DNA of 57,777 nucleotides from Candidatus Microgenomatus auricola (GTDB lineage Bacteria > Patescibacteriota > Patescibacteriia > SBBC01), in the NCBI GenBank assembly GCA_005239865.1, contig SBBC01000033.1:1-57777 (forward strand), read 5' to 3'. Below the pieces are notes generated by a model. The model worked only from the letters and a program-made list of their open reading frames with translations, searched no databases and was not told the DNA's origin. Positions 3,002 through 49,628 of this stretch are shown here, piece after piece (the first letter of the stretch is position 1; the number at the start of each line of letters is the position of its first letter). Position numbers and translations under genes: made by a program.

Positions 3002-4144
3002 ATGATTTCCTCGCTCCACAATCGTCGAACAGGACAAGAATCTCGCGTTGATCACGACCGTCATTCACATGCCGAACATCCTTCAAAGTCCATTGCGTTA
3101 CTTGTTAGCACCTTCGATGCTTTTAGTGGTATCGACCGTGTGGTCGAACTTCAGGCGATCGAACTGGCGGGGCGAGGCCATCATGTGACAATTATTGCTC
3201 TCGCAGCCACAATGCCAGCACCTCGCGGTACACGTCTACTCACCCTCGGACTTCCATCGTCGACACTGCTCCAACGTCTCTACCGATTATTGATGTTTCT
3301 CGATCAGTCAAAAATCCAGCAGGCGGCTAATCTCCTTAGAGATACTGATATTGTGTACAGTCATCAGTATCCAATGAACCTCATCGCCCTGGAAGCACGA
3401 AAACGCTATGGGTCGACATTTATCTATTATGACCACGGCCTGCCCCCCGCGCGGGTTTTCGGTAGTATCGTTGAACGGGTGTACATTATCCTTTTTCGGT
3501 GGTTCGCCAAGTGGACTGTCCGCCGCGCTGACCGTATAATAACGATCAGCTATTTTCTCCGCCAGGAACTTCAACGACAGACCGGCAAGAAGGCCGAGGT
3601 GATTTACGATCGAATTGACGAACGTCGGTATCATCGAGGCCTTGATCAGGACACGGCCCGAAGATTTATTGGCATCGACGACCGGTTAATGGCGCTATTC
3701 GTCGGTCGCCTCTCACCACATAAAGGAGTTCATCTTCTCCTCCAGGCATGGTCAATTGTCTTTCGGAAAATCCCAAACGTAAAACTCGTGATCGTTGGCA
3801 AGGCAACTTTTCCCCGATATTTACGCAAACTCCACAACCTAGGAAAGGGGATTAACGTCTTGTTCACCGGTGTCGTTTCTGACGAAGACCTTCCGCGATA
3901 CTTCGCCGCCTGCGATATTTACGTCACCGCTTCACTCTGGGAAGGGTTTAATTTACCAATGGCCGAAGCGCACGCATGCGGTAAACCAATCGTTGCCTTT
4001 GACGTCGGTCCCCACAGAGAAATAGCCCGCAAGCGGTCGCGTTTTGTAGCTGCAGGAAACATCACCGAACTCGCCCACGCCATCATCGCGGTCTTCGAAG
4101 AAATACGGGACGATCTTTCGGTTGAACGAAGCGCAAGACCGTAG
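3002..4144 (+). CDS. glycosyltransferase family 4
   Basis: VGRLSPHKGVHLLLQAW; TASLWEGFNLPMAEAHACGKPIVAFDVG. Confidence 0.9.
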   Translation: MISSLHNRRTGQESRVDHDRHSHAEHPSKSIALLVSTFDAFSGIDRVVELQAIELAGRGHHVTIIALAATMPAPRGTRLLTLGLPSSTLLQRLYRLLMFLDQSKIQQAANLLRDTDIVYSHQYPMNLIALEARKRYGSTFIYYDHGLPPARVFGSIVERVYIILFRWFAKWTVRRADRIITISYFLRQELQRQTGKKAEVIYDRIDERRYHRGLDQDTARRFIGIDDRLMALFVGRLSPHKGVHLLLQAWSIVFRKIPNVKLVIVGKATFPRYLRKLHNLGKGINVLFTGVVSDEDLPRYFAACDIYVTASLWEGFNLPMAEAHACGKPIVAFDVGPHREIARKRSRFVAAGNITELAHAIIAVFEEIRDDLSVERSARP

Positions 4145-4152
4145 AGGTCAAG

Positions 4153-5637
4153 ATGAAGCGTACAACTGTTGTGGGAACGTTCCAACTCATCATCCTCGCA
4201 CTCGTTATCGTTTTTGTGCAGTTGTACTACAACGCTGACCATCAATTGCCACCCTGTTGTGATACCGCCCATACGCTAGTTCGGGCAAAGGCGATCACAA
4301 TGAATGAGTCGGTCAGCGGGATCTTGCCATACAACCCTTCATTCAGAGAACCAATGTACGGGGGCTTCATTTCGACCGAATTTCCTGTTCACGTTTTCCT
4401 TTCGCTATTCTATCAAGTTCAACCTGACCTCATTGGTGACCTAGCATTCGGTAAAAAGTTTTTTGTCGGGATGTTTCTCCTACCCGCCCTGTCTATCTAC
4501 ATTCTGGCCAACCGACTTCTCCACTCATCCATCGCCGGTATAATCGCGGTTCTCATCGTATATTTCGCCTACTGGTTTGGCAATGCCTATTGGACTGGTC
4601 ATGTTGCACAAATTCTCGGCATGTTCATTATTCCGTTCTATATATACTTTATTGTTCGCTACGAAGAGGAGGGCATGATTTTTTTCCTCTACTTTCCTCT
4701 GGTCATACTCCTTTTTTCTTTCTGGGTACATGTCTTGACCTTTCTCATTCTCCTTCTCGTTACAGCCAGTTACGCGATGATTAAAATTTTTTCAACTGGC
4801 GGGAAAGCCAAGGCGGCGATCGCCTACACTGCATTTAGCACCGCCACAATTGTCTATTTTTTGCTCGCACCATTAAATCTCCTCCCTCATTTCGAAGTCA
4901 ATGCGATGTACAATCAGTTTGGAAGCATCATCGAAAGTTCATTCGGGGGAGTGGTATTCCTGACGTTATTGATGGTCGGCTCATTCTTCGCCATCCGAAA
5001 AAGAAGAATACTCATAGTCTGGTTCCTCGTAACCTATTTTTTGACCCAATCGACTTGGCTCGGAGTGCCCTTTTTCGGGATTCGTTTCACCGAGTTCATT
5101 ATTACCCCAATCGCCATCATAGTAGTTTATGGTATGAAGGAATCTTTTAAGGCGATTGGAATGAGAAAAACTGGTTCAGTAGCGATGGCGGTTCTTCTCC
5201 TCATCTTTTTGCCCTTCGGCTTGATGCAGCAGGAGAGGTTGAAATCCTGCTACATTGACAATTGCCTGGGCCTCAACCCGACGCAAATCCCGCCAGACGA
5301 TCTCCAGGCGATGTCATGGATCAAAACAAATATCCCCCGAGAAAGCGTTTTTATCGGACCTCAAAAGTTCGGGTACTATCTTCCTTTCATCACCGATAAT
5401 ACCATTGAGTTTCCAGTGCTTGAACGAATTTCAATTTTTACCGCGCCGACGTCAGCTGAACGATGGCAAATTGCAAAGGGTATCGGCATTGACTATATAT
5501 TTTGGGACGCGATCATTGATTCGTACAAGAACGAACACCCCGATTTTAACAACTACGCGATCGAACCCCTTGAGAACGAAAAGTACTTTGCAAAAGTCTA
5601 TGACGAAGGAAACGCAAAAATATTCGCTGTTCGTTGA
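4153..5637 (+). CDS. polytopic membrane protein, putative glycan-related
   Basis: Many hydrophobic segments, soluble C-terminal domain; co-directional in glycan cluster. Confidence 0.7.
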   Translation: MKRTTVVGTFQLIILALVIVFVQLYYNADHQLPPCCDTAHTLVRAKAITMNESVSGILPYNPSFREPMYGGFISTEFPVHVFLSLFYQVQPDLIGDLAFGKKFFVGMFLLPALSIYILANRLLHSSIAGIIAVLIVYFAYWFGNAYWTGHVAQILGMFIIPFYIYFIVRYEEEGMIFFLYFPLVILLFSFWVHVLTFLILLLVTASYAMIKIFSTGGKAKAAIAYTAFSTATIVYFLLAPLNLLPHFEVNAMYNQFGSIIESSFGGVVFLTLLMVGSFFAIRKRRILIVWFLVTYFLTQSTWLGVPFFGIRFTEFIITPIAIIVVYGMKESFKAIGMRKTGSVAMAVLLLIFLPFGLMQQERLKSCYIDNCLGLNPTQIPPDDLQAMSWIKTNIPRESVFIGPQKFGYYLPFITDNTIEFPVLERISIFTAPTSAERWQIAKGIGIDYIFWDAIIDSYKNEHPDFNNYAIEPLENEKYFAKVYDEGNAKIFAVR

Positions 5638-42236: not shown

Positions 42237-42248
42237 ACAGAAATGAGC

Positions 42249-42284
42249 GGCCTGGTGCGGGGCGAATTCCCCTCGTGGCCTCCA
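42249..42284 (+). other. tRNA-Cys-derived minihelix-like fragment (acceptor plus T-arm only)
   Basis: GGCCTGGTGC-GGGGCGAATTCCCC-TCGTGGCC-TCCA versus parent tRNA-Cys 12 nt upstream. Confidence 0.5.
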
Positions 42285-42288
42285 TCGC

Positions 42289-42647
<359 letters not shown>

Positions 42648-42650
42648 CCG

Positions 42651-42792
42651 TCCCGCACCACTTGCCAAATAATTGTGATTTCTGCGCGAGAGTAGTTCAG
42701 TGGTAGAACGCTTCCTTGCCAAGGAAGAGGTCGGGGGTTCGAGTCCCCTCTCTCGCTCCAAGTAAAGTAATTTCTACTCAAGTGGTGCGGGA
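42651..42792. repeat. 14-bp perfect inverted repeat flanking a complete tRNA-Gly
   Basis: TCCCGCACCACTTG (42651-42664) versus CAAGTGGTGCGGGA (42779-42792). Confidence 0.9.
42686..42760 (+). tRNA. tRNA-Gly(GCC), CCA encoded
   Basis: Acceptor GCGAGAG/CTCTCGC, anticodon loop TTGCCAA, T-arm GGGGGTTCGAGTCCCCT, TCCA. Confidence 0.95.
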
Positions 42793-45688: not shown

Positions 45689-46963
45689 GTGTCACCCACA
45701 AATTTTTTCCAGAACGTTATGCATGAGCTTCGTCAGGCCGCCGAGATCGGTCATCTGCCGCAGCACGCACTCGAGATCCTGAAACAGCCGCAACGGATTT
45801 TCCAGGTGGCCATTCCGGTTCGGATGGATAAAGGGACGACAAAAATCTTCACCGGTTTTCGCGTCCAGCACAACGACGCTCGCGGTCCCTTCAAGGGCGG
45901 GATTCGTTTTCATCCGCGGACTGATTTGAGCGAAGTCAAAGCGTTAGCCCTCCTGATGTCAATGAAGTGCGCGGCCGTCAATATCCCTTTTGGCGGGGCC
46001 AAGGGCGGGGTGGCGGTTGATCCGAAATCCCTTTCAGCGCGCGAACTCGAGGACTTGTCTCGGGGCTGGGTGCGGGCGATGTACAAGTACTTGGGTCCGG
46101 AAGTGGATATCCCGGCGCCGGATGTCTATACGACGCCGAAGATCATGGCTTGGATGGTTGACGAGTACAGCCGGTTGACCGGCAAGTGGCAGCCCGGCGC
46201 GTTCACTGGCAAACCTCGGGAAATTGGGGGATCAGTCGGACGCGAATCCGCCACTGGCCTCGGAGGAGCAATCATGTTGAAGGCGCTCTTGCAGAAACTT
46301 CGGCGGTCGCCGAGACAGACGACGGTCGCGGTTCAGGGGTTCGGAAACGTCGGCTACCACCTGGCCGAAGAACTCCATCGGACCGGCTACAAAGTCATTG
46401 CGATTTCCGATTCGCGAGGTGGGATCGCTGACCTCCGTCGCCAGGGGATGGATCCGGCGCACGTGCTGGCCACGAAACAGAAGCGGGGAATGATCGCTGG
46501 CGTGTACTGCGTCGGGACAGTTTGCGATTTCAAGAACTACAAAGCCATCTCAAACGAGGACGTGCTGACGATGAAGGTTGACGTGCTCGTTCCGGCGGCT
46601 CTCGAGAACGCGATCACGAAGGACAACGCCGGTCGCGTCCAAGCCAAGATTATCTTGGAGATGGCGAATGGCGCGATTACTTCGGAAGCCAACGCCAAGC
46701 TCCAGCGGAAGAATACGGTCATCGTGCCGGACATCATCGCCAACGCCGGCGGCGTTGTTGGCTCGTACTTCGAGTGGGTCCAGAACTTGACGAACAGCTA
46801 CTGGCCGGAGGAGAAATTCGAACAACGCTTGAGGTCGGTCATGGAAAAAGCCTTCACCAGCGTGTGGTCGATGGGGACGGAGCTAAAAACGAATCTTCGG
46901 GTGGCTGCCTGGATTATTGCGACGCGAAGAATTGCGCAAGCGATTGAGGCACGGGGATGGTGA
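45689..46963 (+). CDS. gdhA: Glu/Leu/Phe/Val dehydrogenase
   Basis: GPFKGGIRFHP; LMSMKCAAVNIPFGGAKGGV; VAVQGFGNVGYHLAEEL. Confidence 0.95.
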   Translation: MSPTNFFQNVMHELRQAAEIGHLPQHALEILKQPQRIFQVAIPVRMDKGTTKIFTGFRVQHNDARGPFKGGIRFHPRTDLSEVKALALLMSMKCAAVNIPFGGAKGGVAVDPKSLSARELEDLSRGWVRAMYKYLGPEVDIPAPDVYTTPKIMAWMVDEYSRLTGKWQPGAFTGKPREIGGSVGRESATGLGGAIMLKALLQKLRRSPRQTTVAVQGFGNVGYHLAEELHRTGYKVIAISDSRGGIADLRRQGMDPAHVLATKQKRGMIAGVYCVGTVCDFKNYKAISNEDVLTMKVDVLVPAALENAITKDNAGRVQAKIILEMANGAITSEANAKLQRKNTVIVPDIIANAGGVVGSYFEWVQNLTNSYWPEEKFEQRLRSVMEKAFTSVWSMGTELKTNLRVAAWIIATRRIAQAIEARGW

Positions 46964-47111
46964 TGCTCGGGTGGGAAACCTACGGTTTCCCCCTCCGATG
47001 CTCCGCTTTTCCCTGTACGGTGTCGCGCTGCCTCGCTCGTCTAGGGTCCCGTCCTTCGGACACCCTGATCCTCGCTCCGGCGGACGCGACAATTGTCTTT
47101 GAAGTAAATCC

Positions 47112-47537
47112 ATGATGCAGAAACTTCATCACTGGCCACTCAAAGCTGTCCACCCGTGGGTGTCGAAGCACTATCACTACGCCGTGGTTGGCGCTTCGGC
47201 CAATCCGGAAAAGTTCGGGAATATTATTTTTTTCGATCTCAAGAACGCCGGCTTTATGGTGACGCCGGTGAATCCCCGCCTACGCGAACTCGGTGGCGTC
47301 AAGGCCGTATCTCGTCTTCAAGATATGATGCCGAAACCAGAGGTGGCAATTGTCGTCGTTCCGCCTGACGTGGGCATGAAAGTGATTGATGATGCGGTTG
47401 AGGCGGGAGTCAAGAAACTGTGGTTCCAGCCGGGGGCCGAGTCGCCGGAACTCCAAAAGAAAACCGCTGACGCCGGCCTGGACGCGATCACCGACGGCTC
47501 GTGCATCATGGTTGTCCGTCGGCAAATCGAACGGTAG
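47112..47537 (+). CDS. CoA-binding domain protein (YccU-like)
   Basis: YAVVGASANPEKFGNIIFFDLKNAGFMVTPVNPRL; KLWFQPGAES. Confidence 0.9.
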   Translation: MMQKLHHWPLKAVHPWVSKHYHYAVVGASANPEKFGNIIFFDLKNAGFMVTPVNPRLRELGGVKAVSRLQDMMPKPEVAIVVVPPDVGMKVIDDAVEAGVKKLWFQPGAESPELQKKTADAGLDAITDGSCIMVVRRQIER

Positions 47538-47584: not shown

Positions 47585-47613
47585 TTGACCAAATTAATAA
47601 AAAGGGATATAGT
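47585..47613 (+). promoter_or_regulatory. strong putative promoter for candidate large ncRNA
   Basis: TTGACC-N17-TATAGT. Confidence 0.65.
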
Positions 47614-47619
47614 CCTAGA

Positions 47620-48947
47620 TTGTAGTTTTGTTTTTCCACAACCGCAGGACTACATGAGGGATTTTCCCTCTTGAGATCTTTGATAGCGCGAGACAAGCGA
47701 GAAAGCGGTTTTTCCCCCATCCTTCAAGGACGGATGGTCGAAAGGAGCAGAGTACATGACGTGCTCGCTGAAGTTTCCTTCATGAGGATGTTGCCTGAGA
47801 AACCCCGCCATGGAATTCTCGAGTTCCATCCGCAATGACCGGGATACGGTCGCGAGTCCCTTTTGGGCACGGGGAATATCGAGCGTTCGCATGAACAGGT
47901 TTTTTGGGCGATCACTCCACAGCGCATGGAGCAGGCACAGCTGTCCAGGTGCTAGCGGCCCTCCCTCCAACCTGTGAGCCGCGGCGACGTTTCAAAACGC
48001 CGCCGCCGAACTTTCCGTAGCAACAGTTCAAGGAAAGGAACTGATGCATGAACACGGAAAGGGCGCCCCCCAGCTAGGGCGGGCAGTACGTTCCGACAGC
48101 CGTGGGTTCAGTTGGTTTGTTGGTGGCGCAAAGGCCTGACCGTTGTGAACCGACGGTTGTCGCGGTTGACCCAAGGCCAGCGGTGTCGCTGGAAGTCAAA
48201 TGGACTTGGGAAGAACTTACGGAGTTCCGGCACACCGCGGCCTTGGAAGGTTTCACCCAAGCGAGCTTGGTGTCAGGTTGTTTCCTGAAGACCGTGGACG
48301 CTCCACACCATGCACTCTCGGACCGAGAAACGGTCGTTCATAAAAAGCATGTGGTCGCTGGAGGATACGTCAAGCGGTTCTTCGGGACGTTCCCCCGCGA
48401 ACGGCTGACCAGAGTCCGTGAACTTTGGACAACCGTTCGCTCGACGGACCAGCGCAATCCAAGGAGGAGGATTGCAAGCCATGTGTATTCGTGGTCCGTA
48501 AGAAGTTTGGACTGGGAGCCAGGTGCGCCGGGCGAAACCAAGTCCCGGAAGTTCCCGGCGCACCACTCCCGGCACTTCCGCACACCTTGTGCACGTACGC
48601 GGCGGCATGGCGTTCCAATGCCTGGTCAACAAACCCGGAGTCCACGTAGGACACCATGTCGCCGTCTTTTTCACCAGGAAAGGTGAACTGCCACATGCCG
48701 ATGCCGAAGCATCTCTTTCGGACGTACCGGTTCATCCAGAGGCAGAGTGGGTACAAGATCTCCAAGCGCAGTCAGCGCCGCGGCTGGCACCGGGCCAGGG
48801 ATTGCCCGTAAATCGCTTTCAATGCTTGAGAGGCGAGCGTCACCAACACGGTGAAGTGCCCTTTCGCCAAGGTCAGGGCATCAAGATCCGGGGCGCTCGC
48901 CCCGCTGTTCTCCTGAAGGGTTTCCGATTTTCGGCCCCTTCTTTTTT
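47620..48947 (+). ncRNA. candidate large structured noncoding RNA, about 1.3 kb
   Basis: No convincing CDS; dense perfect nested inverted repeats; same-strand promoter and terminator at its ends. Confidence 0.55.
48915..48947 (+). terminator. intrinsic terminator
   Basis: GAAGGG-ttt-CCG-atttt-CGG-cc-CCTTC-TTTTTT; U-tract only on + strand. Confidence 0.7.
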
Positions 48948-48948
48948 A

Positions 48949-48977
48949 TTGCCTCTGGATAGTTCACGGCGTACAAT
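48949..48977 (+). promoter_or_regulatory. putative rnhB promoter
   Basis: TTGCCT-N17-TACAAT, about 13 nt upstream of rnhB ATG. Confidence 0.45.
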
Positions 48978-48989
48978 AGAGGTGATTGT

Positions 48990-49628
48990 ATGGTTGTGCC
49001 TCACACGAAAGAAGAGCAGGCCCTGCGTCAGGCCGGTCACCGACACGTCGCCGGAGCGGACGAAGTGGGCAAAGGCGCATGGGCCGGCCCGCTCGTGGCC
49101 GCGGCAGTCATCCTACCGACCGAGTTCGCGGTCGCCGGCGTGCGCGATTCAAAGCAGTTGAGCCCGCGTCAACGTCAAGCGCTGTTCGTGCGGATTACCA
49201 AGCGCGCAGTCAGTTGGGCGGTCCACGTCGTACCGAATTCCGTCATCGATCGCCGTGGCATCAAGCACGCCAACGTTCAAGCGTTGCAGCAAGCCCTGCG
49301 AAAATTGCACATCCAGCCCGACGCCGCGTTGGTTGACGCGATCCGCGTGAAGCACGGGAAGAAACCGGTCAAGGCGATCATCAAGGGCGACGAAAAGGTT
49401 TTGAGCATTGCGGCCGCATCGATTGTTGCGAAGGTCGTCCGCGATACACTGATGTCCGGTTTCGAACGTCAGTATCCCGGCTACGGCTTTGCGCGACACA
49501 AGGGGTATGGGACGGCAGAGCATGAACTACGTTTGAAAGATCTCGGCCCATCCGACATTCACCGGAAAAGCTTTGCGCCGGTCAAGAGGGTCGGGAAGAA
49601 ACAGACCTCACGGAAAGTAAAACCATGA
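48990..49628 (+). CDS. rnhB: ribonuclease HII
   Basis: VAGADEVGKGAWAGPLVAAAVILP; KQLSPRQR; AAASIVAKVVRDTLM. Confidence 0.95.
   Translation: MVVPHTKEEQALRQAGHRHVAGADEVGKGAWAGPLVAAAVILPTEFAVAGVRDSKQLSPRQRQALFVRITKRAVSWAVHVVPNSVIDRRGIKHANVQALQQALRKLHIQPDAALVDAIRVKHGKKPVKAIIKGDEKVLSIAAASIVAKVVRDTLMSGFERQYPGYGFARHKGYGTAEHELRLKDLGPSDIHRKSFAPVKRVGKKQTSRKVKP

Follow-up and report, generated by a model that had tools for sequence, protein, structure and literature searches.

A hairpin-dense candidate transcription unit upstream of rnhB in Kerfeldbacteria-like Patescibacteria carries a conserved ORF for a basic peptide

The long gap upstream of rnhB in the genome of Candidatus Microgenomatus auricola is best explained, at what we judge to be about even chances, as an independent transcription unit on the + strand that comprises both a hairpin-dense RNA body and the message of an arginine/lysine-rich, probably helical peptide of ~36 aa. 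Rather than the purely noncoding giant RNA for which it had been taken in a first-pass annotation made from the sequence alone, the locus is probably a gene of mixed nature that combines RNA and peptide. What has been computed is an excess of structure, promoter-like and terminator sites that are in place in a sister genus as well, and conservation of the peptide at the codon level. The RNA body itself is fast-evolving, and its known range is confined to a single family of Kerfeldbacteria-like Patescibacteria.

The window, i.e. the whole stretch of DNA analysed here (57,777 nucleotides), corresponds to a single contig (C50); the genome measures 1.0 Mb. The genes around the locus follow in the order trxB-like, glutamate dehydrogenase (GDH), CoA-binding protein, gap, rnhB and methyltransferase-like, and the gap is bounded, as described earlier, by the CoA-binding stop codon at 47537 and the rnhB start codon at 48990. 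Both transcription signals that had been placed at its ends were recovered (Table 1): the promoter-like site in a consensus scan (10/12 matches), and the terminator, overlooked by the consensus scanner, by folding, where its stem-loop GAAGGG...CCCTTC followed by TTTTTT forms as drawn. An independent unit is further supported by rnhB having a promoter-like site of its own.

Table 1. Sequence features of the locus (window coordinates; G004 and G001 are genomes from two other genera of the same family)
Feature	Position	Strand	Remarks
Promoter-like site TTGACC-17-TATAGT	47585..47613	+	Consensus scan; 48 nt past the CoA-binding stop
Hairpin-dense body of the presumed transcript	47614..48668	+	First 1,055 nt, small ORF excluded; z -8.3; no Rfam match; ORFs without Pfam match; no recognisable gene
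Tentative AAGGAGCAGAGTACATGAC ribosome-site-like element with 9-aa ORF (MTCSLKFPS)	47742..47785	+	Weak; common to G004 3704-3720
Hairpin TTCACC-aggaaa-GGTGAA	48670..48687	+	Covers the Shine-Dalgarno region of the small ORF; folds locally
Small ORF, 38 codons (36 from ATG 48701)	48695..48811	+	Basic peptide MP(MP)KHLFRTYRFIQRQSGYKISKRSQRRGWHRARDCP
Hairpin CGGGGC-GCTC-GCCCCG	48889..48904	+	Upstream of the terminator; GGGCGCTCGCCC found in G004 too
Intrinsic terminator	48915..48947	+	Folds; ~40 nt 5′ of rnhB; terminators of G004 and G001 equally distant
Separate promoter-like site of rnhB, TTGCCT-17-TACAAT	48949..48977	+	Consensus scan; TACAATA conserved in G004

The inverted repeats reported for the interior proved real, all 13 that were re-checked being present at their positions, and the fold merges the three consecutive hairpins claimed at 48177-48227 into a single 24-bp hairpin (48171-48197/48222-48246). 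When the minimum free energy was compared with dinucleotide shuffles, as the first-pass annotation had proposed, the presumed transcript (47614-48947; 1,334 nt) reached -587.3 kcal/mol against a mean of -502.1 (sd 12.0), i.e. a z of -7.1, with the body exceeding this value (Table 1). The reverse strand of the same stretch has a z of -5.75, and neighbouring genes serving as controls lie close to 0 (0.6 for the GDH gene, -0.2 for the rnhB region). Forty-four 1-kb segments drawn at random from this genome have a mean z of -1.2 and a minimum of -4.7 in a background that is rough, with eight shuffles per segment; by the same method, the locus scores -10.8 and -7.9. The structure of the locus is stronger than composition-matched chance, z -7.1 standing against the background minimum of -4.7. 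Pairing of the two ends of the RNA did not exceed shuffles, and long-range closing helices that seemed to be shared were rejected on this ground. Structure is likewise seen in the spacer between GDH and the CoA-binding gene (window 46964-47111), with a z of -3.4 computed over 46901-47100.

Neighbouring genes led to positional counterparts of the locus, which now span three genera of one family; the taxonomic order was represented by only 10 genomes, restricting any comparative test. In G004, which belongs to the same family and another genus, trxB, GDH and the CoA-binding gene are followed by a 1.6-kb gap without a recognisable gene, the first codons of rnhB and the end of the contig. The sole promoter-like site of this gap, TTGACA-16-TATGCT, lies 46 nt past the stop codon of the CoA-binding gene, compared with 48 nt for its counterpart in the window, the gap has a z of -5.4, and a strong terminator stands ~40 nt 5′ of rnhB. 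G001, from a third genus, offers 1.7 kb upstream of rnhB before the contig end cuts it off (z -5.8), with a terminator at an equal distance from rnhB. Outside the family, in G008, rnhB directly follows GDH. Two further members of the family, G002 and G003 (both ~90% complete), yielded none of GDH, the CoA-binding gene, rnhB and the methyltransferase gene, reflecting either loss of the block or an assembly gap; most of the G002 genome was scanned in case the locus had moved, which detected RNase P RNA, tmRNA and rRNA and no recognisable homologue of the locus.

Sequence conservation of the body is another matter. The ~1.05 kb upstream of the small ORF gave no DNA or translated alignment between genera (window versus G004 and G001), although the neighbouring proteins of these genera are ~70% identical, and a structure-profile alignment of the three bodies did not rise above rotated, reversed or shuffled controls. 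Since the bodies are too diverged to align across genera, they provide no covariation. A structured body is thus present in the three genera one by one; a structure conserved across them is a separate claim and unproven. A suggestive exception to the unaligned body is the AAGGAGCAG..TACATGAC element, behind which the window has a very short ORF. The AAGGAGCAGAGTACATGAC element shared with G004 is equalled in score by 6 of 300 shuffles and absent from both strands of 2.3 Mb of genome pieces.

The statement that no ORF between the CoA-binding gene and rnhB is convincing turned out to be wrong at the 3′ end, where an ORF for 36-38 aa, starting at 48695 or 48701, is conserved in the sister genus. 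In an nhmmer search, window 48669-48902 matches G004 4127-4354 (E 8e-11), and the peptides encoded there, MPKHLFRTYRFIQRQSGYKISKRSQRRGWHRARDCP in the window (48701-48811) and MPKSVFLSLRRLQRMFGYKLWKRGKRRGWHRARDGP in G004 (4153-4263), are identical at 22 of 36 positions (tblastn E 1e-14). Codon positions 1/2/3 account for 4/2/10 of the differences in the C-terminal half of the ORF (p 0.006), where the residues kept also exceed those expected if an equal number of changes were placed at random (p 0.0005); taken by itself, the third-position bias is less marked when the ORF is considered in full (p 0.09). G004 also has a hairpin, TTCCTC/GAGGAA, at the matching place over the Shine-Dalgarno region. 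RNAalifold counted 18 double changes among 58 pairs of this 3′ module, which proves nothing given that the alignment holds two sequences and is largely coding.

The peptide is rich in arginine and lysine, with a net charge of ~+10 as read from its sequence, and AlphaFold2 predicts it to be one helix (mean pLDDT 77 from a two-sequence alignment). Searches of Pfam, PHROGs, NCBIfam and the PDB gave no matching family. Searching 381 genomes of the class and 380 of the phylum returned the peptide only from the genome of the window (G000) and G004, and it was not found in G001 despite the structured gap there; weak matches in G033, G034, G054 and G228 were discarded as unrelated or out-of-frame sequence.

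Because the 3′ part holds this conserved small ORF, the purely noncoding label is not supported: codon-level conservation, which the first-pass annotation had itself named as evidence that would count against it, covers 111 nt of ~1,334. Its structured-RNA reading is supported in part, by a strong excess of structure, transcription signals that keep their positions in the sister genus, the lack of an Rfam match or repeated DNA, and counterparts in two other genera. The Rfam search was run at the gathering threshold in the window and at relaxed E-values in the locus without a family matching there, and at relaxed E-values the locus and its counterparts in G004 and G001 gave nothing beyond noise from unrelated small families, including sub-threshold matches to SAM-Chlorobi (22.1 bits, cut-off 35) and PtaRNA1 that were rejected. 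Membership of other known RNA families is likewise unsupported: no tmRNA model, tRNA-like domain or RNase P RNA model matches at the locus, the genome's own tmRNA and RNase P RNA sitting elsewhere (L117 6914-7316 and L135 17940-18403, respectively), and no group II or group I intron family appeared in the relaxed scan. At the DNA level, the locus occurs once in its own genome and has no further copy in 95 relatives, and nothing real resembling it was found among viral contigs, phages and plasmids; two weak matches to the promoter and 5′ end, in G049 and G043, were taken as chance. A protein-coding body or pseudogene is unsupported, as the ORFs of the body lack Pfam matches and show no similarity in translation to G004 or G001. 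Literature searches turned up no account of an RNA of this kind from the Kerfeldbacteria-like group.

OLE, ROOL and GOLLD are large ornate bacterial RNAs for which cryo-EM structures are available (PMC12286853), and it was to these that the locus had been compared. Like them, it is large, with dense predicted secondary structure and a presumed transcription unit of its own; unlike them, it has no Rfam match in three genomes at relaxed thresholds, a body unconserved between genera and a conserved small ORF. The covariance models of all three RNAs went unmatched at the locus, and the comparison stands as one of size, beyond which nothing ties the locus to them. A giant noncoding RNA of conserved architecture and similar scale, with the small ORF as a passenger or minor partner, would account for the length, the structure excess, the independent transcription signals, the body without coding signal and the similarly structured gaps of G004 and G001. 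Against it stand the conserved ORF in the 3′ part and the lack of any detectable conservation of the body by sequence or structure profile. We consider it unlikely, and a new class of giant noncoding RNA is unproven.

Bacterial RNAs with a dual function, i.e. structured RNAs that also encode a small protein, are another precedent. The locus shares with them a small ORF, conserved at the codon level in two genomes, within a structured presumed transcript whose ribosome site lies in a hairpin. Known dual-function RNAs are mostly a few hundred nucleotides long, whereas this transcript would measure ~1.33 kb and its separate RNA function is a candidate only. The same arrangement could also represent a long structured 5′ leader, with a body that solely cis-regulates translation or stability of the small-peptide message and plays no separate role. 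The body and the small ORF do share one presumed transcript, with the ORF at its 3′ end, the Shine-Dalgarno region of the ORF is within a hairpin in both the window and G004, and there may be an upstream mini-ORF. However, 1.05 kb is very long for the leader of a 36-codon message, and the G001 gap is similarly structured without a recognisable copy of the peptide. We regard a leader alone as a distinctly unlikely reading.

Under the preferred reading of a combined RNA and peptide gene, transcription would be driven by the promoter at 47585 and stop at the terminator (48947), yielding an RNA of ~1.33 kb of which the first ~1.05 kb would fold into the hairpin-dense body, while the Shine-Dalgarno hairpin may gate translation of the peptide. 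To judge by its charge, the peptide may in turn bind RNA, most likely its own transcript, acting either as an autoregulator or as a protein that partners the folded RNA. Arginine-rich RNA-binding peptides such as phage N proteins offer a comparison, in that the peptide is similarly short, strongly basic and predicted to be helical; unlike them, it matches nothing in the family and structure databases searched, and its binding is putative. If it does bind RNA, the locus would constitute a compact RNA-protein unit that is directly testable.

Few large structured RNAs have been catalogued in bacteria, and sequence conservation led to their discovery. Should this locus indeed keep its position, transcription signals and structure excess while its sequence drifts, searches based on families would miss such RNAs, above all in Patescibacteria. 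A bolder proposal, which we regard as improbable, is that it represents a very large (1.3-1.6 kb) new class of structured RNA, confined to one family of Patescibacteria and hidden from sequence searches by its fast evolution, whose members encode an arginine-rich protein partner of their own and form a ribonucleoprotein with it.

A scan of ORF-poor structured gaps, covering ~84% of the genome, places the locus in a wider context. It includes RNase P RNA (L135), tmRNA (L117) and tRNAs, all confirmed by Rfam, and therefore detects real RNAs; because atypical genes also passed as gaps, it is a screen rather than an annotation. The scan bears on a further reading, in which the locus would simply be spacer DNA, rich in hairpins and functionless in itself, e.g. 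palindromic elements of the kind that build up in spacers next to small genes evolving fast. In its favour, ORF-poor gaps show a slight average excess of structure in this genome and G002 (mean z -0.9), G002 has small ORFs separated by hairpin-rich spacers in a 4-kb run, and the locus folds well on both strands. Against this, no other strongly structured gap listed in the scan of its own genome is as long, its promoter-like and terminator sites occupy conserved positions and it recurs in three genera. Nor does it contain repeated DNA, some of which is present in many comparable structured gaps, and a repeat element was rejected for this reason. We deem functionless spacer DNA very unlikely, the least probable of the readings considered.

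The run in G002 (L154 15188-19359) consists of small ORFs of unknown function set apart by long spacers rich in hairpins (gap z -2.7 to -4.5), with CCTGAAACGAGTTCAGGATGACA-type palindromes, and has no sequence similarity to the window locus. Several tRNA fragments were encountered elsewhere. Within the window, a tRNA-Gly-like sequence (42603-42666; 43.7 bits, Rfam) that ARAGORN missed lies 20 nt before the intact tRNA-Gly (42686-42760); seemingly without a normal T arm, it may be a decayed duplicate. Directly after tRNA-Cys, a partial repeat of the tRNA's end (gcggcctggtgcggggcgaattcccctcgtggcctcc; 42237-42284) would fit the duplication of a tRNA fragment. Finally, in L145 of the same genome (9340-9730), tRNA-Gln-like fragments that contain GC-rich hairpins flank the intact gene.
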